DNA of 64,000 nt from Sulfuritalea sp. (lineage in GTDB: Bacteria; Pseudomonadota; Gammaproteobacteria; Burkholderiales; Rhodocyclaceae): positions 1 through 64,000 of the forward strand of contig JALHPU010000014.1 in NCBI GenBank assembly GCA_022842325.1. The letters run 5' to 3'. The notes beneath the pieces are model-generated. The model was not told the origin of the DNA, did not search any database, and saw only the letters and a program-made list of their open reading frames with translations. Position 1 is the first letter of the stretch. Every line of letters begins with the position of its first letter. The translations under genes were made by a program, and so were the position numbers. Below are positions 4,616-54,467 of this stretch, piece by piece.

Positions 4616-4685
4616 CGTTGAATCACCTGGTCGTGAATGAGATACACAAAAAGAATGGGGAGCGCATCGCGCGCGCCCTCGGAAC

Positions 4686-5090: not shown

Positions 5091-5151
5091 CGTCGGATCT
5101 TCTGGTCAGGTCCGTTGAGGTGCTGCTGCTGACACAAAAAATTGCTCTCGG

Positions 5152-5939: not shown

Positions 5940-5951
5940 CGTCGGTTCCTT

Positions 5952-26463: not shown

Positions 26464-26491
26464 GCTTGCTCCGGACGCTGGCGCTGGGAGG

Positions 26492-33826: not shown

Positions 33827-33878
33827 GATCTTTTTCTCCTGAGTTCTCGTCACACAAATGCTTGTTAGCCATTCCCGC

Positions 33879-35302: not shown

Positions 35303-35340
35303 GCTTCGCACCCTGTCGGATTAGTGGTCATCCCCTCTCC

Positions 35341-38312: not shown

Positions 38313-40061
38313 TCAAGATTCCTTGACCCCGAACTTCTTCCCGACCCACTGCGCCAGAACCACCAGGAAGAACAGGGCCATGATGAACATCACGCCAAGT
38401 GCAGACAATTCGACGTATTGGCCGTTTTCCCACAATTCCCATATGACGATGGCAATCACTTCGGTACCGGGGCTGTAAAGCAGAATCGAGGTGGACAATT
38501 CACGAATGGAAACGATCACAATGTAAATCCAGCCGGCCACCAGCCCCGGCTTGAGCAGCGGCAGGATGATTCTGCGGAAGGTGGTCCACCACGAGGCGCC
38601 GCTCATCGCCGCCGATTCCTCCAGTTCCTTGTGGATCTGCAGCATCGACGTGGTGTTGTAGCGCAGACCGTAGGGCATGAAGCGCGTTACGTAGGCGAGG
38701 AACATGATCCACATCGTGCCGTAGATGCCGATGTCGAAATTCAGGTAGAAGATCATCACCGCCAGACCCAGCACCAAGCCTGGAAACACCATCGGCAGCG
38801 AAGCGATGTTGTCGAGCAGCCAGCGTCCCGGAATCTTGGTCTTGACCACGATCCAGCAGATGACCGAGGTCAGCAGCATGACCAGGGTGGCGGTACCGAA
38901 GGCGAGCAGCGCGCTGTTCCAGACGGAATTGATCAACGTCGGGTAGCTCAAAATGAACCGGTAGGGATCCAGCGTCAGGTTTTGCAGCGCGGTCATGGAG
39001 GGCACGCTATAAAACTTCTGGAATGACGACCAGAGCAGGACGAGGAATGGAAGAGCGACAATCGTCAGGAAATAGACGATGAACATCGCCGCCGTGACAT
39101 AGCGCCATTTGCCGAGATCCATGGCGCGTGGCCGGAAACCCTTGCCGGTCATTGTCGAGTACTTGTTGCCCTGACTGGACAGACGGGACTGGAAATAGAC
39201 GCCGAGACTGGTGATCAGCAGCAGGGTCACCGCGTACGCCGATGCCAGCCCGACGTTGCTCGGATACTGGTGGATGGCCTGATAAATCGACGATGTGAAC
39301 ACCTGTATGCCGACTGGAAGCCCGATCAGCGCCGGCACCTCGAACGATTCGATGGCGCGGACGAAAAGGATCAGCATGGTCGCAAAGATGGCCGGCCAGG
39401 TAAGCTTGAGGGTGATGCGCCAGGCGACCTGGCGAATGCTGGCGCCGCTCATGATCGCCGACTCCTCGAGCGACGGGTCCATCGACCTGAATGCAGCGGT
39501 CATGATGAGAAACGCCATCGGAGAGTAGTGCAGGCCCTCGACCCAGATCATCCCCCACATCGAATAGACGTTGAAGAAAACGTAGTCGGTGCCGAACCAT
39601 GCTTGCAGCGCCAGATTGAGGAGGCCGATCTTGGGACTGGCGAGCAGTATCCACGAGACGGTGAACAGAATCCCCGGAATGATCAGCGGAATGATCGACA
39701 GCGCAAAGAACAGATTCTTGAACGGAGTGTTGGTCCTCTCGTTCATCCACGCCAGTGTGGTACCGGTGAGAAAGGCGAAAACGGCGGTACCCGCCGCGAA
39801 CTGCAGCGAGTTCAGGAACAGCCGGACCGTCTCCAAACTGGTATAGGCAGTGCGGAAATTGCCGAGGGTAAATTCGGCGGGCTTGGCGACGGTATGCGGC
39901 GTAAAAAAGCTTTGCCATAACAGGAAGCCGAGCGGGACGATGGCGATATAAGTGACTACCACCGCACAGAGACCGAGAATGATCCATTTTGCATCGATGC
40001 GGCGCCACGCCGACAAGCGCTTCTCGTTTCCGTCAGCGGACAGTTGACCAGCGATTTCCAT
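38313..40061 (-). CDS. ABC transporter permease, fused double domain (FbpB-like)
   Basis: A 582-residue inner-membrane protein with about twelve helices in two homologous halves, each carrying the EAA loop that contacts the ATPase. The first reads EESAIMSGASIRQVAWRIT and the second EESAAMSGASWWTTFRRIIL. This architecture is that of ferric-iron type permeases. I chose the ATG at 40061 (MEIAGQLSADG), with GGAGG upstream; the frame is open 10 codons further. It is the first gene of the 16-kb minus-strand array. The divergent region upstream faces another FbpA-type receptor gene. Confidence 0.93.
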   Translation of the reverse strand: MEIAGQLSADGNEKRLSAWRRIDAKWIILGLCAVVVTYIAIVPLGFLLWQSFFTPHTVAKPAEFTLGNFRTAYTSLETVRLFLNSLQFAAGTAVFAFLTGTTLAWMNERTNTPFKNLFFALSIIPLIIPGILFTVSWILLASPKIGLLNLALQAWFGTDYVFFNVYSMWGMIWVEGLHYSPMAFLIMTAAFRSMDPSLEESAIMSGASIRQVAWRITLKLTWPAIFATMLILFVRAIESFEVPALIGLPVGIQVFTSSIYQAIHQYPSNVGLASAYAVTLLLITSLGVYFQSRLSSQGNKYSTMTGKGFRPRAMDLGKWRYVTAAMFIVYFLTIVALPFLVLLWSSFQKFYSVPSMTALQNLTLDPYRFILSYPTLINSVWNSALLAFGTATLVMLLTSVICWIVVKTKIPGRWLLDNIASLPMVFPGLVLGLAVMIFYLNFDIGIYGTMWIMFLAYVTRFMPYGLRYNTTSMLQIHKELEESAAMSGASWWTTFRRIILPLLKPGLVAGWIYIVIVSIRELSTSILLYSPGTEVIAIVIWELWENGQYVELSALGVMFIMALFFLVVLAQWVGKKFGVKES

Positions 40062-40918
40062 TGAAACGAGTCCTCCCTTGATTGGCACCACTATCGAGCG
40101 CCGTTGTTGCGTCCGCCAGCGATGTTTCGCCGAGCGTCGCCCAATTATTATCGGTTCCTCTATCCGGAACGACGGTCCGTACTGGAAACCGCATGGGACG
40201 GAAGCTATAGGCCACTGACGCCGATGTCAACCCATCCGATCACACGAATATCCTTTCTCTGCTTCCCCTTTTTGCGATGCAGCAGAGCCTTTTAAAAACA
40301 CAAGCTCGGCGGGCCCCGGGTAACGCGACACCCGTGCCAACAATCGGGAAACCATGACATAAGACTGGCATCAGCATTTGTGGCAACGCATCAATTCCGC
40401 CTATGCTCGCCCCCCCCCAAAGACAACATCGCATTTACCCGAGACGTATGTCACGGATCATGCAAGGGACGTTCTCTGCGGGAATTTCTTTGCATGTAAG
40501 GCTGACGTTGACGGAGCACAATGCGCCTCATCGCACCGCACCATTTACGGCCACTGGTTCGATTCGATTGGCATTGGTTGGCGAGCCGAAACGGATCGGA
40601 GCAAAGCGTCGGGAAATCGAGAAGTGCCCCTTCTATCCGCGCCAAGCTTGGCAAGTCGTCCGCCGCTAGCTTCCACCACCGACCCGAATATGGTCCATAT
40701 TGTGAGATTGTTTATGCCGTGCTACGGGTGAAATTGAGACATCTGCGGTTAAAGTGCTTCCACTAGCCTTGTCATGCGTCCATCATGTGGTCGCCATGAA
40801 GAAAGTTTTTGTTCAGTCTCGCAGCCCGCGTGGGCGCGGGATTCAGGTTTTCCGGTCGGCGGTGCCACATCGAGATAGGGAAATCAACGGCAGGCAAACG
40901 TTCAGAACGGAGGATTGC
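40062..40918. other. Long divergent intergenic region, no gene seen
   Basis: About 860 bases between the permease and the next receptor gene, which diverge. Short frames exist on both strands (for example 40378-40731 plus) but have no family resemblance or good start. It must hold the promoters for the minus-strand array and the plus-strand receptor-EutA-bicupin operon. I checked for a cobalamin riboswitch because EutA-like genes follow; no recognisable B12-box could be assigned. Confidence 0.45.
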
Positions 40919-41986
40919 ATGAAGTATATTTTCCAAAAAACAGGTTTGATGCTGTCGCTGTTGATACTCCCTATCCATACCCCGGCCATCGCCCAGGCAT
41001 CGCCCGGGGCCTCTACCCTCGTCGCGATAGCCGGCGCGGAAGGCGCAAACCGTTCGCAGCAACTGATCGATGGCGCCAGGAAGGAGGGCGAATTGACCAT
41101 TTACGAATCAATGACCGGCGAAGACATTACCCCGATCATCGACGCCTTCAGCAAAAAGTACGGCATCAAGGTGAAGGTCTGGCGCTCGAGTTCGGAGAAC
41201 GTTCTGCAGCGGGTCGTGAACGAAGCGAAAGCGGGCCGTACTGATGTCGACGTGGTCGAAAACAATGCGCCCGAAATGGAGGCCTTGCATCGTGAAAAGT
41301 TGTTGCAGCAGGTCAAGTCGCCCCACCTGAAAGGCCTGATGCCGCAAGCCATTCCCGCCCACAAGGAGTGGGTCGGACACACCATCGATGTCTTTGTCCA
41401 GGCCTACAACACCGACAAGGTCAAAAAGGAAGAACTGCCGAAGTCGTATCAGGATTTGCTCGATTCCAAGTGGAAAGGCCGTTTGGGCGTCGAAGCAAAT
41501 GATCAGGCCTGGTTTGCCACACTCGCCAAGGAACTGGGTGAGGAAAAGACCATCAAGCTGTTCAGGGACATCGGCGCCGGCAACGGCCTCTCGGTGCGCA
41601 AGGGGCATACGCTGCTGACCAATCTCGTTGCGGCGGGAGAAGTCCCGCTCGGGCTGACGATATACAACAACAAGCCGGAGCAGTTGAAAGAGAAGGGCGC
41701 GGCCATCGACTGGTTCGTCATGCAACCGGTGATCGCCCAGTTCCGCAGCGTCGGAGTAATCAAGACCGCCCCCCACCCTCACGCGGCGGTGCTGTTCTTC
41801 GATTTCATGCTTGACGAAGGACAGGCGATTTCACACGGACGAAAATACCTTACAACCAACACCAAATTCGACGCATCCCTGAGAAAACAGCCGCTCAAGT
41901 TCATTGATCCGGCGCTGGCGCTCGACATGGCGGACAAGTGGCTGAAGAGCTACGAAGACAACATTACCAAGCAAGCCGGAAAATAG
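40919..41986 (+). CDS. FbpA-type ABC substrate-binding protein (paralog 4)
   Basis: A 355-residue receptor. Signal peptide: MKYIFQKTGLMLSLLILPIH. Shared blocks are EGANRSQQLIDGARKEGELT, FSKKYGIKVKVWRSSSENVL, ENNAPEMEALHREKLLQQVK, LPKSYQDLLDSKWKGRLGVE and LSVRKGHTLLTNLVAAGEVP. It is closest by eye to the IS-interrupted receptor at 56662-59063 (ENNAPEMEALHREKLLQ and RSSSE identical). GGAGG precedes the ATG at 40919; the open frame upstream is spurious. It is the first gene of a tight plus-strand operon: 15 bases to a EutA-like gene, then 15 bases to a bicupin. A receptor in one transcript with EutA suggests they handle the same ligand. Confidence 0.9.
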   Translation: MKYIFQKTGLMLSLLILPIHTPAIAQASPGASTLVAIAGAEGANRSQQLIDGARKEGELTIYESMTGEDITPIIDAFSKKYGIKVKVWRSSSENVLQRVVNEAKAGRTDVDVVENNAPEMEALHREKLLQQVKSPHLKGLMPQAIPAHKEWVGHTIDVFVQAYNTDKVKKEELPKSYQDLLDSKWKGRLGVEANDQAWFATLAKELGEEKTIKLFRDIGAGNGLSVRKGHTLLTNLVAAGEVPLGLTIYNNKPEQLKEKGAAIDWFVMQPVIAQFRSVGVIKTAPHPHAAVLFFDFMLDEGQAISHGRKYLTTNTKFDASLRKQPLKFIDPALALDMADKWLKSYEDNITKQAGK

Positions 41987-42001: not shown

Positions 42002-43624
42002 ATGAATCATCGAGGAGAACTATTCCCGGAGCCAAAGACGCAGCCGCAGCCGAGACACGGCCACGACGGAGACGGCGAACACTTTCACGACATCTCGGTG
42101 GATGCGCGTGGCGCGATCTCGGAGTTCATATGGAAGGTCGATAACGTCGAGCTAACCACGGTCGGTATCGACATTGGGAGTTCAACCTCTCATCTCATGT
42201 TTTCCAGGGTTCGCCTGCAGCGCAGGACGCAATTGCTGTCGAGCCAGTTCATCGTCGTAGAGCGCAAAATATTGTGGCGCTCGCCGATCATCCTGACGCC
42301 GTTTCTGCCCGATGACACGATAGACGCCGCCGGCCTCGGGGTCTTTTTTGAACATAGCTTTCGGCTGGCCGGCCTATTGCCCACGGATATCGACAGCGGC
42401 GCGGTGATTCTGACGGGCGAAGCGATCAGGAAGCACAATGCCCGGGCGATCGCCGACCTGTTCGCCGGCGAGTCCGGCAAATTTGTTTGCGCCTCGGCCG
42501 GACACCATCTGGAATGCGCGCTCGCCGCCCACGGTTCGGGAGCGGTCGCCCTGTCGAGAGCGTCTTCGCAGGTGGTTCTGAACGTCGATATCGGTGGCGG
42601 CACCACCAAGCTAGCCCTGATCCGAAACGGCGAGATCGTCAGCACCTGCGCCTTCGCGATCGGCGGTCGGCTGATCGCACACGACACCGAAGGCCGACTG
42701 GTGCGCATCGATGGCGCCGCGCGGATTGCGGCCAAGGAGCTTGGTCTGGACTTGCGCCTGAATGAACGAGCGGTGCCCGCCGACATCGACCGTCTGGTCG
42801 CGGCGCTCGGCGCCACCACCATTTCGCTGATCCGGCAGGAGCCACTGGGCGAGCTGGCGAAACAATTACTGTTGACTGAGCGGCTGCCGCCCGGCATCAC
42901 GCCCGACATCATCACTTTTTCCGGCGGCGTATCCGAATACATTTACGGTCGCGAAAGCGCGCTTTTCGGGGACATCGCCAAGCCCCTGGCCGACAACATC
43001 GCAGCGGCTTTTGGCGCCGGCAGCTTTGCCGCTCGCGTGCTCGATCCGGGCCAGGGCATCCGCGCCACGGTCATCGGCGCCTCGCAATTTGCGGTTCAGG
43101 TCAGTGGCAAGACCATCCATATTTCGCAAGGGACGCCGCTGCCCGTGCGCAATGTTCCGGTCTTGTTCCCGCGCCTCGCGCTCGACGGGGATTTCAGCGC
43201 GCCCTTGGTAGCCACGGCAATCATAGCCGCGTTTGCGCGCACGCACCTCGATGCGGGGGAGCCTGTGGCCCTCGCGCTGAGGTGGCGGGGCGACCCCGAT
43301 TATCTCCGGCTGCGCAGCCTGGCCGAGGGAATCGCACAGGCCACGGCGACCGGGTCCGACAGTGCGGCGCCCTTGATCTTGCTGGTGGACGGCGATATCG
43401 GCAAAACCCTTGGCCTGATCCTCGAGCGGGAACTGCGCCTGCCGCGTCATCTGGTGTCGATTGACGGCATTCAGTTGAAGGAACTGGACTACGTCGATAT
43501 CGGCGATCTCATCGAACCAAGCAAGGTTGTCCCGATCGTCATCAAGTCACTGTTGTTTTCGACCGGCAGCGACGCCGCAAAGCCTGGAAAAGCGGGAACC
43601 CGCTACCGTCATTCGCTTCATTAA
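42002..43624 (+). CDS. EutA-like ATPase (ethanolamine ammonia-lyase reactivase family), copy 1
   Basis: A 540-residue member of the EutA family, ASKHA-fold ATPases that in enteric bacteria reactivate B12-dependent ethanolamine ammonia-lyase. Phosphate-1 motif VGIDIGSSTSHLMFSRV (about 54-70), phosphate-2 LNVDIGGGTTKLAL and adenosine motif FSGGVSEYIYGRES are intact. The N-terminus adds a His-bearing tail (PRHGHDGDGEHFHD, about 17-30) not needed for the fold. No eutB, eutC or other eut genes are present, so the client enzyme is unlikely to be ethanolamine ammonia-lyase encoded here. It sits between a receptor and a bicupin, with 15-base gaps. The client may be another enzyme; a chaperone-like or metal-handling role is inference. 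Confidence 0.85.
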   Translation: MNHRGELFPEPKTQPQPRHGHDGDGEHFHDISVDARGAISEFIWKVDNVELTTVGIDIGSSTSHLMFSRVRLQRRTQLLSSQFIVVERKILWRSPIILTPFLPDDTIDAAGLGVFFEHSFRLAGLLPTDIDSGAVILTGEAIRKHNARAIADLFAGESGKFVCASAGHHLECALAAHGSGAVALSRASSQVVLNVDIGGGTTKLALIRNGEIVSTCAFAIGGRLIAHDTEGRLVRIDGAARIAAKELGLDLRLNERAVPADIDRLVAALGATTISLIRQEPLGELAKQLLLTERLPPGITPDIITFSGGVSEYIYGRESALFGDIAKPLADNIAAAFGAGSFAARVLDPGQGIRATVIGASQFAVQVSGKTIHISQGTPLPVRNVPVLFPRLALDGDFSAPLVATAIIAAFARTHLDAGEPVALALRWRGDPDYLRLRSLAEGIAQATATGSDSAAPLILLVDGDIGKTLGLILERELRLPRHLVSIDGIQLKELDYVDIGDLIEPSKVVPIVIKSLLFSTGSDAAKPGKAGTRYRHSLH

Positions 43625-43639
43625 ACAAGAAAGGGCAAC

Positions 43640-44722
43640 ATGGATAACACCAGCACACCGCAAGTAATGATCGACTCATACCTGGAATGGGTAAAAAAGG
43701 AAGGCCTTCCGATAACCGAGGATTTCGGGGTCGACCTGTTAGGGGTTGAAACCGCGCTTTGGCCACGCTTCGACGCGAAGGGTGCAGCAGTACACCTGAA
43801 GGGGCGCGGCGACTTCATCAGCATGTTCGTGCTCGAAATCGCTCCCTCGGCGTCGACTTCGCCGCAGCGCCACCTGTACGAAGAAGTGGTCTATGTGCTC
43901 GCCGGACGGGGCAGCACGACGATCGAGACCAGCGACGGCCGTAAGCACATGTTCGAATGGGGCCCGATGAGCATGTTCGCCATTCCGCTCAACGCAAAAT
44001 ACAGGCATTTCAACGGCAGCGGCGCCGAGCCGGCGCGGCTCGTGTCGACGACCAGCATGCCAGCGGTCATGAACATGTTTCACAACGAGGAGTTCATTTT
44101 CAATAACGAGTGGCAATTCGACGAGCGGATCGGCGAGTCGAAGTACTTCAGCGGCGAGGGTGACTTCATTCCGGTGCGCCCCGGCAATCACATGTGGGAA
44201 ACCAATTTCGTGCCGGATCTGAGCGCCATCGAACTCAAGCCCTGGGGCGACCGCGGCGCGGGTGGAAGCAACATCATGTTCATCCTCGCCGATGGGACCA
44301 TCCATGCCCACATCTCGGAAATGCCCGTCGGCACCTACAAGAAAGCTCACCGTCACGGTGCCGACTTTCACGTCATGTGCGTTACCGGCAGCGGCTATTC
44401 CCTGTTGTGGTACGAAGGCGAGCAGGACTTTCATCGGGTGGACTGGAAGCACGGCACGGTATTCGCGCCCCCCGACCAGATGTTCCATCAGCACTTCAAC
44501 ACCAGCCCCCAGCCAGCGCGCTATTTCGCCACCGCTTACGGCAGCCTGCGGTATCCCTTTACCGAAAGCAAGCGCAAGTCGCTGTTCGGCGGAGTCTCGA
44601 CCAGTCTGAAGGATGGTGGTGACCAGATCGAGTACGCAGACCAGTCACCGCGAATTCAGCAGCTCTACGAGGAAGCGACGGCAAGATCCGGAGTCACGCC
44701 ACGGATGGCGGCGTTTTTCTGA
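43640..44722 (+). CDS. Bicupin protein, partner of EutA-like copy 1
   Basis: A 360-residue two-domain cupin. The N-terminal cupin has SPQRHLYEEVVYVLAGRGST, with a single His, and PLNAKYRHFNGS. The C-terminal cupin has TYKKAHRHGADFHVMCVTG and FHQHFNTSPQPARYF, a complete metal-binding set. It shares the closing DGGDQIEYADQSP segment with the bicupin at 32024. AAAGGG precedes the ATG, 15 bases after the EutA-like stop. Databases often label such proteins ethanolamine ammonia-lyase-activating because of this adjacency. Their activity has not, to my knowledge, been fixed; a dioxygenase or isomerase role is possible. It converges with EutA-like copy 2. Confidence 0.85.
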   Translation: MDNTSTPQVMIDSYLEWVKKEGLPITEDFGVDLLGVETALWPRFDAKGAAVHLKGRGDFISMFVLEIAPSASTSPQRHLYEEVVYVLAGRGSTTIETSDGRKHMFEWGPMSMFAIPLNAKYRHFNGSGAEPARLVSTTSMPAVMNMFHNEEFIFNNEWQFDERIGESKYFSGEGDFIPVRPGNHMWETNFVPDLSAIELKPWGDRGAGGSNIMFILADGTIHAHISEMPVGTYKKAHRHGADFHVMCVTGSGYSLLWYEGEQDFHRVDWKHGTVFAPPDQMFHQHFNTSPQPARYFATAYGSLRYPFTESKRKSLFGGVSTSLKDGGDQIEYADQSPRIQQLYEEATARSGVTPRMAAFF

Positions 44723-44746
44723 CCGTTCCATCCTGAAACCCTGTCC

Positions 44747-44772
44747 GGGCGCTGCCGTGTGGAGCAGCGCCC
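44747..44772. terminator. Hairpin between convergent genes
   Basis: GGGCGCTGC and GCAGCGCCC make a perfect 9-bp stem with an 8-base loop in the 110-base gap between the ends of the bicupin (plus) and EutA-like copy 2 (minus). There is no T-run, so it is only a terminator-like structure, possibly stopping transcription in both directions or protecting the mRNA 3' ends. Confidence 0.45.
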
Positions 44773-44832
44773 CGGTTGGTGCGCCTGCGCCTGGCTTGAA
44801 CTGCCGCTGACGCACCGGGGCCCTGTGCCGGA

Positions 44833-46551
44833 TCAAACCGGCTTCAGCGGGGCATGGGTATGGTCGTGGCCATGGTCGGCGTGGGAGTGATCGCCATGGT
44901 TGTGGGAGTGGCGGGTACGATACCGATACGCGTGGCCCTTGGGAGCGCGCGGATCCTCGCCGAACACGAGTGATTTCACTGTCACCGGGACGGTCTGGGA
45001 AGGCATGCGGATGCGCCCCAGGTCGATGAAATCGAAATCCCACAGAACGATGCCGTCGATCACCAGGATCTCGCTCGCGATCCCCATTTCCTCTCGCAAC
45101 AGCGCGCCCAGCGTCTGGGCCAGATCGCCGTCCAGGATCAGGTAGATGGGCTTGCCCTGAGCAATGGTGCCGGCGAGGCCCAGAACGATGCCCGCGCCGA
45201 GCGCCAAGACCCGTTTGTACGACGGCGGTCCGCGCCAGCGCAATGCAAGCGCGACATCGCTTGCGCCCTCGACCAGATCGAATGCCGTGAAGTGCTTGCG
45301 GATGGCCTGCGCCACCCGCTCTGGATCGATCTCTTCGCCGCATTCAAGGAGCGGCTGCAGCACCGGCAGGTTCTTGCGCGGCAACAGCGCTCCCGGACTG
45401 GAAATGTAGAGCGTGTTGCCGCTCAACTGCACCGAGTATTCGGACGCCCCGAGAGCCGTGGCGCGGATGCATTCACCCGGTGGCAGCAGTCTCCAGGGCA
45501 GTTCGCCGGCGTCGATTTTTCGGCGTAGCGCGGAACCCAACAACTTGCCCATGTCTCCGAAGTCGCGGTCCTCCCTCGCATACACATACTCGGCAACCCC
45601 ACCCGAAAACATGACGCCGTCAAGATCGAGCGGGCCCTCAAGCGGTTCGGTAAGAAAGAGTCGCCCGATTCGCTCCGGCAGCGGCTGACCGCGCATCGTC
45701 TGGACCAGTGCGTCGGCCATCCACTCGGCGACGTGCTCCATGGCCGCCCGATCGACCCGCTCACCGATCCGCCACGGATGACCGGCCATCGAGGCCAGGT
45801 GGTGGCCGGCGGGGTCCAGGCGAACCAGGCGCTGATCCTTGTCAACCACATGCAAACGGCCGCCGATATGGGTCGCGGCGGTGGCCACTACTCGCCCGTT
45901 GTCGACCACCGCCAGCTTGGTCGTGCCGCCACCGATGTCGACGTTAAGAACCCGGCTACCCCGATCGTGGGACACGCGGGCGGCTCCCGAGCCATAGGCG
46001 GCCAGCATGGCTTCCATATGATGTCCAGCCGTCGCACAGACGAACTCACCGCCCTGCTCCGCCAGCACCCTGGCTATCGCCTCGGCATTCTCGCGGCGTA
46101 ACGCCTCGCCGGTGAGAATGACCACGCCCGTGTCAATATTGTCCGGATGCAGGCGCGCCGCGGCGTAGGCGCGATCAATGATGTCGCCGAGAGCAGTTTC
46201 GTCGATGAGCGTCTCGCTTTGATACGGCGTGAGCGCGACCGGTGACTGGAACAGGGTTTCTCGCGAAACCACGAAGTAGCGGCTGGATAGATCTTCTCCG
46301 CGCCGCCGCAAGTTGATCCGTGAAAAAATGACCTGCGTACCGGAAGATCCGATGTCGATGCCGACGCTCACCAGTGAAACATGATCCTGAATCCAGATTG
46401 GGTTGTCCTCGATGGCGCCCGACGAGTCGAAGTGATCGTGATCGTGATCGGCAATCTCGCCGTCGTCGTGGTGGTGATCGAAGTCCTCCCCGTAGAGATG
46501 GTCGGCAAGTTTGTGTGTCGGATTGCCGTTCCTGTGTTCGTCATTCGACAT
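44833..46551 (-). CDS. EutA-like ATPase with His-rich termini, copy 2
   Basis: A 572-residue EutA-family protein: VSVGIDIGSSGTQVIFSRI, LNVDIGGGTTKLAVV and FSGGVAEYVYAREDRD are the ATPase motifs. Both ends are His/Asp-rich: an N-terminal cluster (DHHHDDGEIADHDHDHFD, about 25-42) and a C-terminal tail with nine His in the last 26 residues (HSHNHGDHSHADHGHDHTH). Such tails are typical of nickel, cobalt or zinc handling proteins. I chose the ATG at 46551 (MSNDEHRNG); the frame is open to 47043 but that part overlaps an IclR gene in another frame and is junk-like. It follows the IclR gene by about 130 bases on the same strand, so that regulator may control it. No EutBC is nearby. Confidence 0.85.
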   Translation of the reverse strand: MSNDEHRNGNPTHKLADHLYGEDFDHHHDDGEIADHDHDHFDSSGAIEDNPIWIQDHVSLVSVGIDIGSSGTQVIFSRINLRRRGEDLSSRYFVVSRETLFQSPVALTPYQSETLIDETALGDIIDRAYAAARLHPDNIDTGVVILTGEALRRENAEAIARVLAEQGGEFVCATAGHHMEAMLAAYGSGAARVSHDRGSRVLNVDIGGGTTKLAVVDNGRVVATAATHIGGRLHVVDKDQRLVRLDPAGHHLASMAGHPWRIGERVDRAAMEHVAEWMADALVQTMRGQPLPERIGRLFLTEPLEGPLDLDGVMFSGGVAEYVYAREDRDFGDMGKLLGSALRRKIDAGELPWRLLPPGECIRATALGASEYSVQLSGNTLYISSPGALLPRKNLPVLQPLLECGEEIDPERVAQAIRKHFTAFDLVEGASDVALALRWRGPPSYKRVLALGAGIVLGLAGTIAQGKPIYLILDGDLAQTLGALLREEMGIASEILVIDGIVLWDFDFIDLGRIRMPSQTVPVTVKSLVFGEDPRAPKGHAYRYRTRHSHNHGDHSHADHGHDHTHAPLKPV

Positions 46552-46679
46552 GCGTTTCCCCGCTGGTAGAGGTGGCAAGCACGTGCGGTGCCACAAGATG
46601 GTGAATAAAATGGCGCTATAGGCGCTGCGTCGTGCGCGGCGGCTTCGGACGCGACCGAAGCTCCTGCCCAGGGCTGCTG

Positions 46680-47486
46680 TTATGCCGGACGCCGGGGCAG
46701 ATATCCCAGTCGCTGGGAAATCGCATCGGCGGCGCCGATCACGTCGGGCGCATAGGCCATAAGCTTTTTCTTGGTGAGACGCTGCGTGGGTCCGGCCACG
46801 CCCGTCGCCGCAATCACCTTGCCGGCGCTGTCCCGAACCGGCGCCGCGATGCATCGCATGCCGGCCTCGCTTTCCTCGTCGTCGATCGCGTAGCCTCGGG
46901 TACGAATCGCCGCCAGTTCCTTGCGCAGCGCGGCAGGGTCGATAATTGTCTTGACCGTGCGTTGCGCAAGACCGCCCCGAATGATCTGCTCGATGGATTC
47001 CGCTGACTGAAAAGCCATCAGGGCTTTTCCCTCGCCGGTGCAATAGGCCGGTTTGCGCATGCCCAGTTCCGTGCTCATGCGAATCACCTGGCGACTTGCG
47101 AGATAGTTGATATAGATAATGCTCGCGTGCTCAAGAATCGCCAGATGCACCGTTTCCCCGGTCGTGTCCCTCAGCATCGTCAAAAAAGGCCTCGCCTCGG
47201 TTGAAAAATCCATTTGCCGCCGCACCAGCGTACCCATCTCGAACAAAGCCATTCCGAGCCTGTATTTGCCCGTCTCCCGAGTTTGCTCCAGCATATCCGC
47301 TCCGATCAGCGTGGAAGCCAGGCGATGCACGGTACTCTTGGCCAAATTGAGCTGCTTGGCCAATTGACTGAGGCCAATCTCGTATTCTTCATCGGAAAAG
47401 GCCTTGAGCAGCCGCATCGCATTGGCAACCGAAGACAACCGCTTGGTGTCGCCTTCCTTTGCCTTTGACATAGATTTGCGTTCCAT
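46680..47486 (-). CDS. IclR-family transcriptional regulator
   Basis: A 268-residue IclR protein. The N-terminal HTH (LSSVANAMRLLKAFSDEEYEIGLSQLAKQLNLAKSTVHRLAST, about 18-62) is followed by the effector domain with TGETVHLAILEHASIIYINY, the substrate-loop region MRKPAYCTGEGKALMA and DDEESEAGMRCIAAPVRD near the end. I chose the ATG at 47486, nine bases after GGAG; a TTG two codons earlier is possible. It stands upstream of EutA-like copy 2 and is divergent from the bicupin at 47849, so it is well placed to regulate the EutA/bicupin cassettes on both sides. The effector is unknown. Confidence 0.92.
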   Translation of the reverse strand: MERKSMSKAKEGDTKRLSSVANAMRLLKAFSDEEYEIGLSQLAKQLNLAKSTVHRLASTLIGADMLEQTRETGKYRLGMALFEMGTLVRRQMDFSTEARPFLTMLRDTTGETVHLAILEHASIIYINYLASRQVIRMSTELGMRKPAYCTGEGKALMAFQSAESIEQIIRGGLAQRTVKTIIDPAALRKELAAIRTRGYAIDDEESEAGMRCIAAPVRDSAGKVIAATGVAGPTQRLTKKKLMAYAPDVIGAADAISQRLGYLPRRPA

Positions 47487-47848
47487 TGACAAGAACTCCG
47501 GTTCATATGTTGGAACTCAGTCTATCAGCGCTCCCATCGCCCGACAAGCAATAGCATGGTCAAATAGGATTTTAGCAACGACGAAAACCAGGAACGCCGG
47601 CCAGGTGCGAAACATAAAAAGAGCGCACCACCGGGCACAAAAGTCGGCGCTGGCGATACGGCGAACCAATGCCACGGGATGCGCGGCATTGTCGGCATGA
47701 CGATGGCGAACGGCAGGCCACGGCGCTGGCTATGCAATCAAAAGGTGAAGTATGATTCATGCGTTTTTATCGGCCTTCCGCATGGGAATACATCAACGCC
47801 GGCGCAGTAGAGGATTCTTGGATCTTATTTTGAAAAGGTATCACTGAA
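47487..47848. promoter_or_regulatory. Divergent intergenic region between IclR and bicupin genes
   Basis: About 360 bases with no gene. It must contain promoters for the IclR gene on the minus strand and the bicupin-EutA pair on the plus strand. I saw no clear palindrome or riboswitch in it. Confidence 0.4.
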
Positions 47849-49063
47849 ATGACGAATAATGGCGGCGAAAATCCCTCGGCCAACGAACATGTCCTGGTCA
47901 AGCAGGCTAAGGTTCTGATTGATCCATACCGTGATTGGGCTGAAGGCGAGGGAATACCGATACATCTCGATTTCGGTCACAACCTGCTCGAGTTGGAGAC
48001 CGGTCCCTGGGATCGTTATGAAGCTCGGGGGTGCTTTGCCCATACCCATGGCGCGGGCGATTTCATGGCTAATTACGTGCTCGAAATTTCTCCCAGCGGA
48101 AAGACCCGCCCGCTAAAGCATCTATATGAAATATTTTGTTTTGTGCTCGCTGGTCATGGCTCGACAAAGGTCTGGCTACCAAATGGCGAGACACGCGTAT
48201 TCGAGTGGGGACCAAAGGCGCTGTTCGCGATCCCGCTCAATTGTCAATATCAGATATTTAACAGCACGAGCTTGAAGCCGGTCCGGATTTCATGCACCAA
48301 CGACGCGCCCATCACGATTAACCTGTATCACAATCTTGATTTCGTCTTTGATAATCCATGCGTTTTTCCGGAACGCGCGGGGCTGTCAAAGCATTTTGAT
48401 GGCGAAGGCGATCATTCTGAATGGATTGCCGCGAACACGATCAAGCGAAATCTATGGGAAACAAATTTTGTTCATGATCTGTCGAGCTTCAAGCTTTATG
48501 AATTTGAAGAGAGAGGCAAGGGATCAACCAACGTCAGTTTCATCCTTGCCGACGGAACGATGCATGCCCATGTATCGCAAATTCCAAAGGGGCGTTACAA
48601 GAAAGCGCATCGTCATGCTGCCGGCACCCATGTGCATGCCGTCGATGGCGTGGGATATTCGCTTTTGTGGCACGAGGGCGATTCGGAATTCAAGGAATTC
48701 CCGTGGCGGCACGGATTCATGTACACACCACCGTTCTGGATGTTCCATCAGCATTTCAACACCGGCCCGAGCCCGGCGCGTTATCTAGCTTGCAGTCTCG
48801 GCAGCCGACGCTATCCGTTCATTTCGCTTAGACGCAAAAGTTCCGAAGGCGCGGGATCCATATCGATTTCGCAAGGCGGTCGCCAAATCGAATACACGGA
48901 TCAGGACGCTCGCATTCATCGCAAATGGCTCGAGGCACTGCGCAAGACCGGTGTGCCGTCTGAAATGGGCGAGATATTCGACGAGCCCGCGATCCTTGAA
49001 TTACCCTCTGAAGCGTTAAGTGGTGTCATACGCACGCCGCGATCAATTGGCCCTGCCGTCTAA
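47849..49063 (+). CDS. Bicupin protein, partner of EutA-like copy 3
   Basis: A 404-residue bicupin. The first cupin (SGKTRPLKHLYEIFCFVLAG, PLNCQYQIFNST) lacks the H-x-H and the late His. The second (RYKKAHRHAAGTHVHAVDG, FHQHFNTGPSPARYLACSLG) keeps the metal ligands. It has a C-terminal extension of about 35 residues compared with the copy at 43640, ending in a basic/Pro segment. The base composition is lower in G+C than the surrounding genes. AAAGGT precedes the ATG. Here the bicupin comes before the EutA-like gene, the reverse of the 42-44.7 kb pair, which argues for independent capture of cassettes rather than a simple tandem duplication. Confidence 0.85.
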   Translation: MTNNGGENPSANEHVLVKQAKVLIDPYRDWAEGEGIPIHLDFGHNLLELETGPWDRYEARGCFAHTHGAGDFMANYVLEISPSGKTRPLKHLYEIFCFVLAGHGSTKVWLPNGETRVFEWGPKALFAIPLNCQYQIFNSTSLKPVRISCTNDAPITINLYHNLDFVFDNPCVFPERAGLSKHFDGEGDHSEWIAANTIKRNLWETNFVHDLSSFKLYEFEERGKGSTNVSFILADGTMHAHVSQIPKGRYKKAHRHAAGTHVHAVDGVGYSLLWHEGDSEFKEFPWRHGFMYTPPFWMFHQHFNTGPSPARYLACSLGSRRYPFISLRRKSSEGAGSISISQGGRQIEYTDQDARIHRKWLEALRKTGVPSEMGEIFDEPAILELPSEALSGVIRTPRSIGPAV

Positions 49064-49151
49064 GCACCTGGCCAGGATCAAACTTGCCCAGACCGGTATG
49101 CAATAGGCGTGTTCGCGTTGTTGGCTGCTCTGGTTTAAGGAGGATTTTCGC

Positions 49152-50678
49152 GTGCCGCATGATATCGATCTTGATCATGAACATGAGCAAATGTCTGAAG
49201 CCGACAGTACCGTGGTCGCCCAAGCCATATGGGAACAGGAAACCATAGAGCTGCGGACGGTCGGCATAGATATTGGAAGCTCCACTTCACATCTGCTGTT
49301 CGCGCGCGTCACTCTCAAACGGTTGGCGGAGGGACTATCCAGTCGGTTTGTTGTGATCGACAGGCAGGTTCTGTGGCGCTCTCCAATCATGTTGACACCA
49401 TTTTTGCCCGATGGCGCGATTGACGCCCGCCAATTGGAGCGCTTTATACGCCATGCATACCATGATGCCGGTCTGCGTCGGGGCGATATTGACAGTGGCG
49501 CGGTGATCCTCACCGGCGAAGCAATAAAGCGCAAAAATGCCCGAGCGATTGACGAAATCTTTGCGGAAGAATCCGGAAAGTTTGTTTGTGCAACCGCCGG
49601 CCACAAATTCGAATGCATTTTGGCGGCACATGGGTCTGGAGCAACGGCGCTGTCGAGACGCAGAGATGAATGCGGGCTTCATGTCGATGTTGGCGGCGGT
49701 ACCACGAAGCTGGCATTGATTGATCGCGGCGAAATTATTGGCGTAGCCGCTTTCGCTGTCGGCGGTCGCCTTCTTGCGCAAGACGAGAATGGAGCGTGGA
49801 CACGTATCGATGACTCCGCGCATCTAGTGGCCAAACAAATGGGGATTGAGGCCTCACCGTGCAGATTTGCGGACGAGTCTGTCCGCCAAGCAATTGCAGA
49901 ACGGTTAGCGATGATTGTTGTAGATCAGATTTGCGGAACAGCGCTCGACGAGTTGGGTCATGCTCTTGAGTTAACCGAGCCGTTACCGAGAACAATGACG
50001 CCGCGTTTTATTACGTTTTCCGGTGGGGTCGCCGAGTACATTTTTGGCCGTGAGAGCGCCAGTCACGGTGACATCGCCAAGCCACTTGCCAACGAAATCG
50101 TCAAGCAGATCAAGGCCCGTATTTCGATTCCAATCATCGAACCCCTGGAGCGCATTCGCGCGACGGTTATCGGCGCCTCGCAATTCACGGTACAGGTGAG
50201 CGGCAAGACCATCTACCTGCCGGATATGGACGTGTTGCCCGTTCACAACATTCCCGTGATCCATCTCGGCCTGGACATCTCCAATCACATCGACACCGAT
50301 GAGATCGTGGGCGCCTTTAAGAGAAATGCGGACATTCTCGATCTCGAGCCAAGCTGCCGTCTGGCGGTCGCGTTTACGTGGGACGGTGCGCCAGAGCATT
50401 GGCGCCTCTTGGCGATGGCCAAAGCCATCATGAAGTTTGCGGCGCCATCAGGAAAAAGGAACGAAATACTTTTCTTGATGATTGACGGCGACGTAGGCGC
50501 CTCCCTTGGTCGAATATTGCACGATGAGCTTCATCTCGATGGAAAAATCGTCTCGATCGACGGTATAAAGTTGCGCGAACTGGACTTCGTTGACGTTGGA
50601 GAATTGCTCGACCCGCCGGGCGTGGTGCCAGTCGTGATCAAGTCCTTGCTGTTTCCGGGCAATCTCCCCTGCAAATAA
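49152..50678 (+). CDS. EutA-like ATPase, copy 3
   Basis: A 508-residue EutA-family protein that starts at a GTG eight bases after AAGGAGG. The N-terminal tail (HDIDLDHEHEQ) is acidic and His-containing. The ATPase motifs VGIDIGSSTSHLLFARV, LHVDVGGGTTKLALI and FSGGVAEYIFGRESASHGDI are intact, and the C-terminal IVSIDGIKLRELDFVDVGEL is shared with copies 1, 2 and 4. It follows the bicupin at 47849 by 88 bases, the reverse order to copy 1. The conserved C-terminal end suggests the same client type. No ethanolamine ammonia-lyase subunits are found. Confidence 0.85.
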   Translation: MPHDIDLDHEHEQMSEADSTVVAQAIWEQETIELRTVGIDIGSSTSHLLFARVTLKRLAEGLSSRFVVIDRQVLWRSPIMLTPFLPDGAIDARQLERFIRHAYHDAGLRRGDIDSGAVILTGEAIKRKNARAIDEIFAEESGKFVCATAGHKFECILAAHGSGATALSRRRDECGLHVDVGGGTTKLALIDRGEIIGVAAFAVGGRLLAQDENGAWTRIDDSAHLVAKQMGIEASPCRFADESVRQAIAERLAMIVVDQICGTALDELGHALELTEPLPRTMTPRFITFSGGVAEYIFGRESASHGDIAKPLANEIVKQIKARISIPIIEPLERIRATVIGASQFTVQVSGKTIYLPDMDVLPVHNIPVIHLGLDISNHIDTDEIVGAFKRNADILDLEPSCRLAVAFTWDGAPEHWRLLAMAKAIMKFAAPSGKRNEILFLMIDGDVGASLGRILHDELHLDGKIVSIDGIKLRELDFVDVGELLDPPGVVPVVIKSLLFPGNLPCK

Positions 50679-51927: not shown

Positions 51928-53025
51928 TCAGTCTCGAATATCCTGCAAGAACCACTCGGTTGGGAGGGTACGTCCGAGCCCGCGCTCTACGGCGGCTTCA
52001 TAAACCACCGCAGCAACGCTGTAAAACTGCGCGCCCTGAATGTTGCCGCGCTCCGAGTAGGTGATCTGGTCGCGACCGCCGCGTCCTTGTTCCCGCTCCG
52101 CCACGATATCGGCGAAGAACACGTCGTCGCCGCGCCCGGTCACTCGCGACGCACGTTTTCCAATAAGCTCACTCTGCCAGCGCGGGTCATCCGGTCGTGC
52201 GAGATAGGCGAGATACTCGTCGGCCGTTCCCAGTTCCGGACGGCCAACCGGCGCCGGCGCCGTCCCCAGCCTGAGCGTGCGATCAAAACGCCCGCGCGCG
52301 CCCTCGGTAGGTCGACCGCCGATTGAAATGACATGCATCCCCGGTTCCAGCCATTCGGGCTGAATCACCGGTACCGAGGAATCCGTGCAGGAAGCCAGAA
52401 TGTCCGCACCGCGGCAAGCGTCGGCGGGATTATCGAGCGCCTCGCAGGCGATGCCGAAGCGCTCCGACATTTCAGCGGCATATCGATCACGATTCGCCTT
52501 GGTCGGGCTGTATACCTTCACGCTGCGAATGTCGCGAACCTCGCGCAGCGCTTCCAGATGGGATCGCGCCATGCCGCCAGCGCCGATCATCGCCAGCGCC
52601 GTCGAATCCTCGCGCGCCATGATATTGGTTCCGATCGCGCTGTCGGCAGCGACCCGCATATGCTGCAGGTAGCCGTCATTGAGGATTGCCAGCGGCTCCC
52701 CGGTGTCAATGCTGGTGAGCCAGATCAGGCCGCAAAAAAGCCCTGGGCGCGAGGCGTATTTTTCCTGGGTCCGCACCCCGTTGTATGCTTGCTCGTAAAT
52801 CACGTCCGACTTCATGCGCACAGCAAAATAGCCGCGCGTCGATCCGCCCTCCATCGTTCCCCATTGATAAACGCGGCCCGGTTCGGCGGTCGGAATGCGA
52901 ATATCAATGCGCGGACGGCATACGGCCTCCTGCGCTGCCAGATCCATATAAGCCTGGAAAAGCGCATCCCGGGTCATGGCCGGAGTCAGCAATTGTTCTA
53001 CGTCGGAATTGTTGAGGAAAAGCAT
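51928..53025 (-). CDS. Ornithine cyclodeaminase/mu-crystallin family dehydrogenase, copy 1
   Basis: A 365-residue OCD-family NAD(P)-dependent protein. The N-terminal part (MLFLNNSDVEQLLTPAMTRDALFQAYMDLA) is the family opening. The Rossmann motif is LAMIGAGGMARSHLEALREV, followed by KVYSPTKANRDRYAAEMSE and ASCTDSSVPVIQPEWLEPGM. Family members are ornithine, alanine, lysine or imine dehydrogenases and reductases. It is the downstream one of three consecutive, co-oriented OCD genes. It shares with copy 3 the C-terminal WFLQDIRD/WFVQDIRD end. It may act on an amino acid or imino acid produced by this region. Confidence 0.88.
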   Translation of the reverse strand: MLFLNNSDVEQLLTPAMTRDALFQAYMDLAAQEAVCRPRIDIRIPTAEPGRVYQWGTMEGGSTRGYFAVRMKSDVIYEQAYNGVRTQEKYASRPGLFCGLIWLTSIDTGEPLAILNDGYLQHMRVAADSAIGTNIMAREDSTALAMIGAGGMARSHLEALREVRDIRSVKVYSPTKANRDRYAAEMSERFGIACEALDNPADACRGADILASCTDSSVPVIQPEWLEPGMHVISIGGRPTEGARGRFDRTLRLGTAPAPVGRPELGTADEYLAYLARPDDPRWQSELIGKRASRVTGRGDDVFFADIVAEREQGRGGRDQITYSERGNIQGAQFYSVAAVVYEAAVERGLGRTLPTEWFLQDIRD

Positions 53026-53136
53026 TGTCTGTTCCTTATTCAGAGGTGTAACTATCGCCGCCAGATCGATACCCGAACCAAGCGTAGCGCCGGTCCCATG
53101 TCTCGGGTCTGAGGTTCTGCCTTCATGGTCTTGCGT

Positions 53137-54204
53137 TCAGGGATGCACGGACTCGGTAAACCATTCGCTCGGCAATTCGTGCCCGAGGCCTCGACTGCGC
53201 GCGCGCTCCAGGATCAAGGCGCCAACGGCGGCGAATTGCAATCCGAGGCCGACATTATTGACGAAGCAGCTAATCTCTGTTTCGTGCTCCCGAGCGGAAG
53301 CCCGTCCGACCAGCAGATCGGCGAGGTCGGCAAAGTCTCCCCAGCGCATGCCCTCCTGGTTCCACCAGCCATCGACAGTCTCCCTGGTCAGGTTTGGCGT
53401 CCCCGGCATGATGTTGTTCATCTGCTTCGCCTGGTGCTTGGTGTGAACCACGGTCCGACCACAGGCCTCGATCACGGCACGGTCAAGTTCCTGGGCCTTG
53501 ATGCAACTGAGGTGAACGCCCGGACGCAACCACGACGGATCGATTACCGGTGTCATCGATGAGGTGGCGGCGATGATGATATCGGCATCGCGCACACATT
53601 GCTCAGGGTTATCCACCAGCGTAACCGTGATGCCCATGCGTTCGGCATCGCGGGCAAAGGCCTCGCGGCTTTCCTGGCGCGGACTGTAGACATTGATTTC
53701 GGTCACCGGACGCACCGCAAGGATCGCCATCAGTTGCGCACCAGCCTGCCAACCGGCGCCGATCATTCCGACGCGGAACGACTCGGGCCGCGCCAGATAC
53801 TTGGCGGCAAGCCCGTTGGTCGCACCCACCCGCATGCGCTGCGCGACTCCGTCCGGAAATATCGCCAGCAGCTCCCCGGTTTCGGTGCTGAACAGCTCCA
53901 CCAGACCGACCCAGCGACCATTCGCCAGGGGCACCTTGACCCGCCGCTGCTTGCCGGCAATGGTCGGGTGAGTAACGATGTCTGAATTGATCCGAAGCGC
54001 TTGAATCTGGCGCGCAGGCCACGTCCCGCCCATATGCTTGAAAGCGTAGAAAGCGTCATCGCTGCTGCACGGTGAGATATTATCGACGCGCGGCGAGTTG
54101 AGCGCTAGTCCATGGGCGAAATCGCGATAGGCCTGCTCGATGATATCAATGCAGTCCTCCATGGAAATAAGTTGCTCGATATCTTCGTTACTCAAAACCA
54201 GCAT
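53137..54204 (-). CDS. Ornithine cyclodeaminase/mu-crystallin family dehydrogenase, copy 2
   Basis: A 355-residue paralog that starts at 54204 (MLVLSNEDIEQLISMEDC) after GGAG; a longer frame to 54390 is not supported. The Rossmann motif is VGMIGAGWQAGAQLMAILAV, with NVYSPRQESREAFARDAERM and AATSSMTPVIDPSWLRPGVH. The Gly-Trp-Gln variant of the cofactor motif differs from copies 1 and 3 (both GGMAR), so it is the outlier of the three. It is separated from copy 1 by about 110 bases and from copy 3 by a 263-base gap with the dispersed repeat. Confidence 0.87.
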   Translation of the reverse strand: MLVLSNEDIEQLISMEDCIDIIEQAYRDFAHGLALNSPRVDNISPCSSDDAFYAFKHMGGTWPARQIQALRINSDIVTHPTIAGKQRRVKVPLANGRWVGLVELFSTETGELLAIFPDGVAQRMRVGATNGLAAKYLARPESFRVGMIGAGWQAGAQLMAILAVRPVTEINVYSPRQESREAFARDAERMGITVTLVDNPEQCVRDADIIIAATSSMTPVIDPSWLRPGVHLSCIKAQELDRAVIEACGRTVVHTKHQAKQMNNIMPGTPNLTRETVDGWWNQEGMRWGDFADLADLLVGRASAREHETEISCFVNNVGLGLQFAAVGALILERARSRGLGHELPSEWFTESVHP

Positions 54205-54372
54205 GATATGTCTCCGATCAAATTGACTGCCGAGTGAAGCACTGGCACATACGAAGACACCGCCAGTGAACGCAGTCCGGCATTCTGAAAAGCATGGCCA
54301 TCGACTGCGCTCCCCTAACTTGCATGGCCGCCAAGGCCACCCCCGTGCCATGAAATTGTTAAAGGCGAATTG

Positions 54373-54443
54373 AAGGCCCGCCCCTCCCATCCTCCCCTCG
54401 CGGGGAGGCTATTAATTGGCTCGCTTCGCTCGACTATCACCAA
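54373..54443 (-). repeat. Dispersed palindromic intergenic repeat, copy 2
   Basis: Read on the minus strand this has GGTGATAGTCGAGCGAAGCG followed by AGCC, a short AT-rich spacer and CTCCCCGCGAGGGGAGG, then a G-rich run ending GGGGCGGG. It matches the element at 14026-14098 in order and spacing with small differences. It lies between two OCD genes. Two copies 40 kb apart in intergenic DNA indicate a REP-like repeat family. Confidence 0.6.
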
Positions 54444-54467
54444 TCGCTCCGAACGAGTTATTTCACG

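Follow-up and report, generated by a model that had tools for sequence, protein, structure and literature searches.

What does an ATPase of the EutA family do where ethanolamine ammonia-lyase is missing? Classical EutA binds damaged ethanolamine ammonia-lyase (EutBC), and ATP lets the spent cobalamin out; it is a helper of the enzyme and not one of its subunits. The question is raised by a 64,000-nucleotide stretch of Sulfuritalea sp. (hereafter the window, G000:C14:1-64000, where G000 is its own genome and C14 is a 108-kb contig of the 4.9-Mb draft), in which EutA (PF06277) ATPases are encoded four times and bicupins three times, one more bicupin gene lying just beyond its right end. Comparison with other genomes revealed that a bicupin takes the place of EutBC as the neighbor of these EutA-like proteins, and no other finding points to their function as strongly as this change of client. 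By analogy with classical EutA, our favored explanation, to which we give about an even chance, is that the EutA-like proteins act as ATP-driven metal-loading or metal-exchange reactivases for cupin metalloenzymes.

The presence of four EutA-family ATPases near bicupins, proposed in a first-pass annotation of this DNA, was confirmed: in all four proteins, the PF06277 match spans nearly the whole model (369–398 bits against a cut-off of 27; model positions 2–3 to 474 of 475), and the two gene orders it described, EutA then bicupin at 42.0–44.7 kb and bicupin then EutA at 47.8–50.7 kb, are correct. None reaches the NCBIfam EutA equivalog cut-off (at most 323 bits vs. 598). The phosphate-1, phosphate-2, and adenosine motifs of ASKHA ATPases are present with small variations (DIGSS, D[IV]GGGT[ST]K, and SGGV, respectively), and a Foldseek search with a model of an EutA-like protein returned PPX/GppA, EutJ, PilM, component A of 2-hydroxyglutaryl-CoA dehydratase, and MreB at template modeling (TM) scores of 0.3–0.55. 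A fifth EutA match in the assembly (contig C3, 26 bits) was rejected as partial, with similar matches in 23 of 24 congeners and all 16 other genomes of the order. In the EutA tree the four window copies belong to different subclades; this tree was rooted with EutBC-linked sequences and is therefore no independent test of their separation, and one divergent EutBC-linked EutA (L127, the same gene as L214) joins the EutA-like side through a very long branch. When the four window proteins were aligned and used as query, at least 528 EutA relatives were detected among GTDB species genomes, of which the best 80 were kept as our locus set. By record title, these 80 come mostly from Alphaproteobacteria (including Rhizobiales and Rhodospirillaceae) and Betaproteobacteria, with a few others, including a metagenome-assembled genome (MAG) labeled as Chloroflexi.

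Across these loci, the bicupin was the most frequent neighbor of EutA upon de novo clustering of neighboring genes. A profile hidden Markov model count over the 80 loci placed a bicupin within 600 bp of 56 of the 63 EutA copies that have at least 1.6 kb of sequence on both sides, and 55 of these 56 adjacent bicupins lie on the same strand as EutA (31 downstream, 24 upstream), with a median gap of 69 bp. This pairing is retained in Beta-, Alpha-, and Gammaproteobacteria and in the Chloroflexi-labeled MAG, while transporters, regulators, and enzymes change between loci, leaving EutA and the bicupin as the most constant elements. The first-pass annotation had envisaged a recurring unit that also included a receptor and an IclR gene. 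The EutA–bicupin core of this unit stands; the IclR gene and the substrate-binding proteins are real in the window and vary from locus to locus.

Most of the seven exceptions to adjacency (L060, L069, L076, L077, L087, L061, and L045) form a coherent group. The first five correspond to a variant EutA clade with the arrangement UbiD, EutA, further genes, RidA, ornithine cyclodeaminase (OCD) family, and NMT1-like; a NicO gene directly follows EutA in L060, L069, L076, and L077 but not in L087 (Pfam-checked in L060), and a small-cupin cluster occurs in four of the five, L077 being the one without it (cupin and RidA Pfam-checked in L076). Judged by neighbor clusters only, L061 has neither NicO nor the small cupin. 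In L045, EutA is directly preceded by a gene for a two-cupin protein, which itself follows genes for an aromatic-ring hydroxylase and an FAH-family protein; a bicupin lies 1.3 kb downstream of EutA. Cupins of other kinds are thus encoded near EutA in L045, L076, L060, L069, and L087, where the usual bicupin is absent or farther away.

EutB and EutC were found in none of the 80 EutA-like loci (stretches of 3.8–21.6 kb), and the possibility that most homologs would adjoin EutBC, raised in the first-pass annotation, does not apply to this EutA group. In contrast, EutB and EutC both lie beside EutA in all 8 other EutA loci that we examined with their flanks. Since each sampled EutA has either EutBC or, usually, a bicupin as its neighbor, the client appears to have been replaced. 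Genome-level checks, which covered 50 of the 80 loci, extended this result: a bicupin was detected in 49 of the 50 EutA-like genomes (3 of which had supplied rows of the profile), and EutB was absent from 44 at E <= 1e-20, many of these genomes being drafts or MAGs, and was present elsewhere in the genome in the other 6. EutB likewise gave no match in the window’s own assembly, although the same search detected it in the E. coli positive control. E. coli EutB, EutC, EutT, EutE, and EutH yielded no tblastn match at E <= 1e-10 across C14:1-100000, which upholds the earlier statement that EutB, EutC, and EutT are not nearby; as to its addition that microcompartment genes are missing too, no shell gene appeared in Pfam scans of many, not all, window open reading frames (ORFs), and no search by name was made. 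Together with the locus comparison, the lack of EutB in 44 genomes makes a client other than EutBC very likely, as had been suggested.

The two genes are also nearly inseparable at the level of whole genomes. Among 397 genomes of one order, 7 carry both genes (including the genome on which the sample was centered, chosen for carrying both), 1 carries EutA only, and none carries the bicupin only; Fisher’s exact test with the center dropped gives p = 1.4e-12, a guide only, since the genomes are related. The EutA-only genome, G719, has its match at the same place and with the same score as G204, whose EutA adjoins EutB and EutC. In 397 Pseudomonadota genomes drawn evenly, the bicupin (E <= 1e-30) was found in the window’s own genome only, and full EutA in 6, namely this genome and 5 with EutB and EutC beside EutA. 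Finally, among 72,556 plasmid records, the 4 with a bicupin (E <= 1e-20) are the 4 with an EutA of >60% identity. On an annotated Phyllobacterium plasmid, the name given to EutA refers to ethanolamine ammonia-lyase and the bicupin is labeled hypothetical; such names are probably misleading for EutA-like proteins. As a separate observation, the divergent EutA of L214 (G204; 229 bits) lies beside a 740-aa ORF spanning both EutB and EutC matches, apparently a fused ethanolamine ammonia-lyase.

To judge from their two barrels and conserved histidine ligands, the partner proteins are putative metalloproteins. The AlphaFold2 model of bicupin 1 (predicted local distance difference test [pLDDT] of 92.4) shows two cupin barrels, and across 80 of the 81 cluster members, H237, H239, H283, and H285, all in the second barrel, are each kept in at least 79. 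Compared with the usual cupin motif, the glutamate position is mostly histidine. Foldseek matches included oxalate decarboxylase and MncA (the two best, TM ~0.48), vicilins, quercetinase, and gentisate dioxygenase, with whole-chain TM scores of 0.4–0.5; these values may reflect a different arrangement of the two barrels. The bicupins scanned fell far below the gentisate and 5-aminosalicylate dioxygenase cut-offs, with at most 30.5 bits to the gentisate 1,2-dioxygenase model NF049978 (cut-off 650) and no TIGR02272 match.

Genomic context suggests that the client bicupins probably work in aromatic-acid catabolism. Neighbors of aromatic-acid type include a LigXa-type Rieske oxygenase, UbiD decarboxylases, Haem_oxygenas_2-type proteins, and a class II aldolase that weakly resembles dihydroxyphthalate decarboxylase along with many other models (74 of the 95 listed proteins neighboring orphan bicupins were scanned). 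We considered the bicupin itself as the ring-cleavage enzyme of a gentisate pathway; a separate gentisate dioxygenase relative (237 bits to TIGR02272, cut-off 442) adjoins bicupins in L190, and members of its cluster, assigned by cluster membership only, lie near bicupins in L183, L185, L196, and L198 and neighbor EutA in L045. We also observed Haem_oxygenas_2 proteins (iron-containing redox enzymes) beside tandem bicupins in L190, L196, L198, and L048, the last just under the cut-off; these may belong to the same pathway as the bicupins.

The histories of the two partners run in parallel. Across 86 adjacent pairs, EutA and bicupin tree distances were correlated (Pearson 0.84, Spearman 0.81), with none of 500 permutations reaching as high a Spearman value. 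The nearest relative outside the genome was the same for both partners in 15 of 23 listed pairs, including the three same-strand adjacent pairs of the window; in 4 further pairs the set of the top three was the same, and in 4 (L165, L168, L170, and L171) it differed. In other genomes (e.g., L160 and L161), B-type and C-type EutA share a conserved second locus with bicupins of the corresponding subtypes, and this comparison bears on the window’s odd pair, in which EutA copy 2 faces bicupin 1 tail to tail on opposite strands, their domains 237 bp apart. Because of the subtypes found at second loci, the cognate of EutA copy 2 is more likely bicupin 3, which is 81–82% identical to the bicupins adjoining B-type EutA in L160 and L161 and 81% identical to an L156 bicupin ~2 kb from a B-type EutA, than the adjoining bicupin 1.

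Despite this pairing, the two genes are not found in equal numbers. The 50 genomes hold at least 352 bicupin matches vs. 158 EutA matches, where the copy numbers are lower bounds for G440, G442, G451, and G466 and the 158 may include classical EutA from the 6 genomes with EutB. Bicupins outnumber EutA in 28 of the 50, and 28 bicupins were found in 19 fetched stretches without EutA, these stretches having been chosen because no EutA was among the matches listed on their contigs. In G441:C22, four tandem bicupins lie beside one EutA. Though many of the genomes are fragmented drafts, the excess of bicupins and their occurrence in EutA-free stretches argue for EutA acting in trans, as one helper for many clients. 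The largest counts among the 50 genomes were those of G440, the Chloroflexi-labeled MAG of L047, with at least 31 bicupins and 10 EutA.

A further link between the partners is a histidine-rich tail. EutA-like proteins carry an N-terminal extension that is absent from E. coli EutA and disordered in the AlphaFold2 model of copy 3 (pLDDT of 82 overall, below 50 for residues 1–14). Its H-D...H-x-H motif was detected in 77 of 86 A-type copies, all 9 B-type copies, and 1 of 3 unplaced ones, as compared to none of the 16 C-type and none of the 7 classical copies; 9 of 10 B-type copies, including the window’s, have a histidine-rich C-terminal tail as well. In C-type pairs, EutA lacks the motif and the bicupin usually begins with it (e.g., MPHD...HWHEP). 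Placement is thus complementary: of the 84 pairs scored (the other 2 of the 86 were dropped because the core motif was absent or lay too close to the end of the frame), 66 have the motif on EutA alone and 11 on the bicupin alone; 7 lack it altogether, and in no pair do both partners carry it. The pattern used for this scoring matches 149 of 4200 shuffled N-termini. From this distribution, the tail seems to work within the pair, with little importance attached to which partner carries it.

These observations would be accommodated by a four-step cycle. A cognate EutA would bind a bicupin that lacks its metal or has been inactivated by oxidation; the ASKHA core would then bind and hydrolyze ATP and so open the bicupin assembly, by analogy with classical EutA; the His/Asp tail, on EutA or, in one subtype, on the bicupin, would remove or deliver the metal of the second-barrel histidine site; and the reactivated bicupin would act in aromatic-acid catabolism, as its genomic context suggests. 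One EutA could serve several bicupins per cell. A more specific version, which we hold tentatively and at somewhat less than an even chance, is that this metal-center reactivase swaps spent for fresh metal in a large radiated bicupin family (at least 31 members in the richest genome), that the tail has moved between the partners, and that bicupins represent a second class of EutA clients.

Several results weigh against this metal-reactivase reading. Adjacency is looser for second-locus copies (L156–L175): of 28 EutA domains, only 17 lie within 600 bp of a bicupin (15 of them sharing its strand), and for 3 the stretch contains no bicupin at all; one genome, G462 (that of L069), has EutA and no bicupin match. 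Copy numbers are equal in 18 of the 50 genomes, and EutA outnumbers the bicupin in 4. In 2 of 13 C-type pairs, the motif is on neither partner, the C-type EutA lacking a histidine tail, and the pattern used for the motif was shaped after inspection and varied between analyses. The tail swap is moreover essentially confined to one clade, so that its p value does not reflect independent events; with a motif defined post hoc, it represents a qualitative pointer. The tails may also store or buffer metal instead of inserting it, and metal transporters (NicO and TerC) are found near a minority of loci only. The first barrel keeps H78 and E81 (79 of 80 each), a possible metal site, although a second site there is made less likely by the lack of an H-x-H. 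Lastly, the correlated trees would fit a stable two-subunit enzyme equally well.

Such an enzyme represents the main rival, and a rather unlikely one in our judgment: EutA-like protein and bicupin would be the two subunits of a single ATP-dependent enzyme, with the ASKHA component activating the substrate for a reaction that the bicupin then finishes, on the model of the ASKHA subunit in the hydantoinase/oxoprolinase/acetone carboxylase group. The tight adjacency in both gene orders, the correlated trees, the equal copy numbers in 18 genomes, and a motif never found on both partners are all consistent with this arrangement. It is the surplus of bicupins, their presence in stretches without EutA, and the tandem array with a single EutA in G441 that argue for a helper instead, along with the wide variation of other pathway genes and the precedent of classical EutA.

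Less probable still is that the EutA-like proteins serve as general metal storage or delivery proteins for the island (Ni, Co, Fe, or Mn) without acting directly on the bicupins. Histidine-rich tails would suit this role, as would the NicO gene in the window and the variant clade and a TerC gene lying at a distance of ~1 kb in L065, L073, and L118 (Phyllobacterium), as measured from EutA; however, NicO and TerC relatives are limited to a minority of loci, and the correlated trees and near-exclusive co-occurrence point to a direct partnership. We regard it as very unlikely that the two genes are neighbors only through block inheritance of a composite aromatic-catabolism island, since the pair is kept across classes and in both gene orders while other genes change, and bicupins dispersed from EutA were nonetheless found, in the searched samples, only in EutA-bearing genomes; the richness of the loci in transporters and aromatic-type enzymes and the island-like character of the window region are what this explanation has in its favor. 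That these are ordinary reactivases of an ethanolamine ammonia-lyase or other B12 enzyme encoded elsewhere is hardly credible, the full-length PF06277 match and the 6 genomes with EutB being outweighed by the lack of EutB in the other 44 and in G000, the locus comparison, the sub-threshold equivalog scores, and an N-terminal tail absent from the classical EutAs examined, EutB and EutC being the B12-enzyme subunits that these searches covered; a classical eut function was accordingly set aside.

A binning artifact was also considered for C14. Its guanine-plus-cytosine fraction is 0.58–0.61, as against 0.53–0.67 for 16 stretches taken from other contigs, whose tetranucleotide distances likewise span those of C14, and the contig looks to be of one genus with the other contigs because ~6 kb in its left part (window 1775-7766) matches congeners in pieces of about 71–91%. 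A full EutA was found in none of 24 congeners, several of them incomplete, and the region from ~7.8 kb was therefore likely acquired. A second copy of the 1775-7766 segment is present at G000:C11:88706-95711 (88–90% over two long pieces), reflecting either two related species mixed in the bin or a real duplication, and the contamination estimate for the assembly is 5.15%. Either C11 or C14 may thus come from a second species of the genus, so the absence of EutB in G000 is not to be leaned on alone, and the case for the EutA–bicupin pair rests on other genomes.

Table 1 Features of the window and its right flank. Coordinates are window positions unless prefixed with C14.
Feature	Coordinates	Strand	Evidence and remarks
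Bicupin 3, cognate subtype of EutA copy 2	32024..33163	-	Family profile and subtype comparison
Small cupin protein, B-type cassette	33215..33853	-	Cupin_2, two stretches; relatives in L156, L159-L163
Small cupin protein, B-type cassette	33879..34433	-	Cupin_2
NAD-dependent beta-hydroxyacid dehydrogenase-like	34475..35311	-	NAD_binding_2; same gene in L162
Thiamine-pyrophosphate enzyme (benzoylformate decarboxylase/acetolactate synthase superfamily)	35341..37206	-	80% identical protein in L162
ATP-binding cassette (ABC) transporter ATPase	37158..38282	-	Pfam scan
ABC transporter permease, PhnU2-like	38313..40091	-	
Periplasmic substrate-binding protein, PhnS-like	40754..41986	+	
EutA-like ATPase copy 1, A-type	42002..43624	+	PF06277, 379 bits; ATPase motifs; N-terminal HGHDGDGEHFHD tail; groups with betaproteobacterial relatives
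Bicupin 1, cognate of EutA copy 1	43640..44722	+	Cupin_2/Cupin_1; H237, H239, H283 conserved, second barrel
EutA-like ATPase copy 2, B-type	44833..46551	-	PF06277, 397 bits; His-rich tails at both termini, 31 His among 572 aa
IclR-family regulator	46680..47492	-	IclR_C, 174 bits
Bicupin 2, cognate of EutA copy 3	47849..49063	+	A4 profile, 646 bits (the profile includes this sequence); nearest relatives match those of EutA copy 3
EutA-like ATPase copy 3, A-type	49152..50678	+	PF06277, 371 bits; N-terminal HDIDLDHEH tail
Three ornithine cyclodeaminase/mu-crystallin-family genes	51928..55574	-	OCD_Mu_crystall in 3 of 3
NMT1/SsuA-like 327-aa protein	55658..56641	-	Neighbor clustering
NicO nickel/cobalt transporter	59518..60318	-	PF03824, 61 bits; HX4DH signature
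Alpha/beta hydrolase after EutA copy 4, C-type cassette	61805..62779	-	Conserved in this cassette; in L157-L163 (7 fetched loci), close relatives adjoin C-type EutA
EutA-like ATPase copy 4, C-type	62776..64000, continues to C14:64338	-	PF06277; without His tail
Fourth bicupin, partner of EutA copy 4	C14:64464-65555	-	Carries the His motif in place of EutA

The surroundings of the pairs have the character of a catabolic island, with several PhnS-like binding proteins, an ABC transporter, thiamine-pyrophosphate enzymes, a beta-hydroxyacid dehydrogenase, UbiD, OCD-family genes, and NicO, and an aldehyde dehydrogenase gene past the window’s end (Table 1). Relatives of the OCD-family genes also occur near EutA or bicupins at other loci, and the NMT1/SsuA-like cluster is the commonest neighbor after the bicupin (38 of 83 sources, the window counted). 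Genes of the chromate-transporter family, so named after the annotation of L118, recur near the EutA–bicupin pair in L065, L066, L080, L089, L118, and others (clusters c9 and c10, with 13 and 12 sources, respectively). In L006, genes for GTP cyclohydrolase II and an nadC-type quinolinate phosphoribosyltransferase lie beside the island (L006:13770-15323), the latter belonging to a cluster present in 16 of 83 sources.

Two other parts of the window merit mention. An insertion sequence-type transposase (57363-58526; DDE_Tnp_1 and DUF4372) directly borders a shortened gene for a substrate-binding protein (56662-57360) whose domain is missing its start, and the insertion may have disrupted this gene. 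Farther left, an ORF on the minus strand (24479-25675) with a 49-bit match to the primase domain of TOTE conflict systems overlaps another ORF (25222-26505) that clusters with a neighbor family of the EutA loci.

Our searches of an open-access library gave no description of the EutA–bicupin pair, most subscription journals being outside this coverage, and the pair is likely novel. Mononuclear cupin enzymes are usually thought to take up their metal unaided; if the metal-reactivase reading is true, they have a dedicated ATP-consuming maintenance machine, in which a metal ion would be exchanged by an EutA-family ATPase in place of cobalamin. It would also open to study a large uncharacterized family of environmental bicupins, for which co-expression of the cognate EutA may be needed to obtain activity.

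Four known systems offer points of comparison. E. coli EutA belongs to the same Pfam family over its full length, is 34% identical to copy 1, and has the phosphate and adenosine motifs, whereas the EutA-like copies have a bicupin partner, an H-D...H-x-H N-terminal tail, and, in one subtype, a histidine-rich C-terminal tail. Gentisate 1,2-dioxygenase and 5-aminosalicylate dioxygenase, which are type III ring-cleaving bicupins, share the two-barrel architecture with the window bicupins, whose second barrel is weakly similar to PDB 3bu7 and which gave local matches to the 5-aminosalicylate dioxygenase model. However, gentisate dioxygenases have their cupin histidine ligands in the first barrel, and the full set of the window bicupins lies in the second. 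HypB, UreE/UreG, SlyD, and CobW/ZNG1 are histidine-rich metallochaperones or insertases that are P-loop GTPases, small carriers, or isomerases. The EutA-like proteins resemble them in combining, as some of them do, a nucleotide hydrolase with a histidine tail beside a metalloenzyme gene, sometimes with a nickel/cobalt transporter gene, but are ASKHA ATPases of the EutA family. Finally, the subunits of the hydantoinase/oxoprolinase group and of acetone carboxylase likewise include an ASKHA ATPase encoded beside its partner, while the four EutAs of the window have no HyuA-type Pfam match and are paired with a bicupin whose copy number does not match their own.

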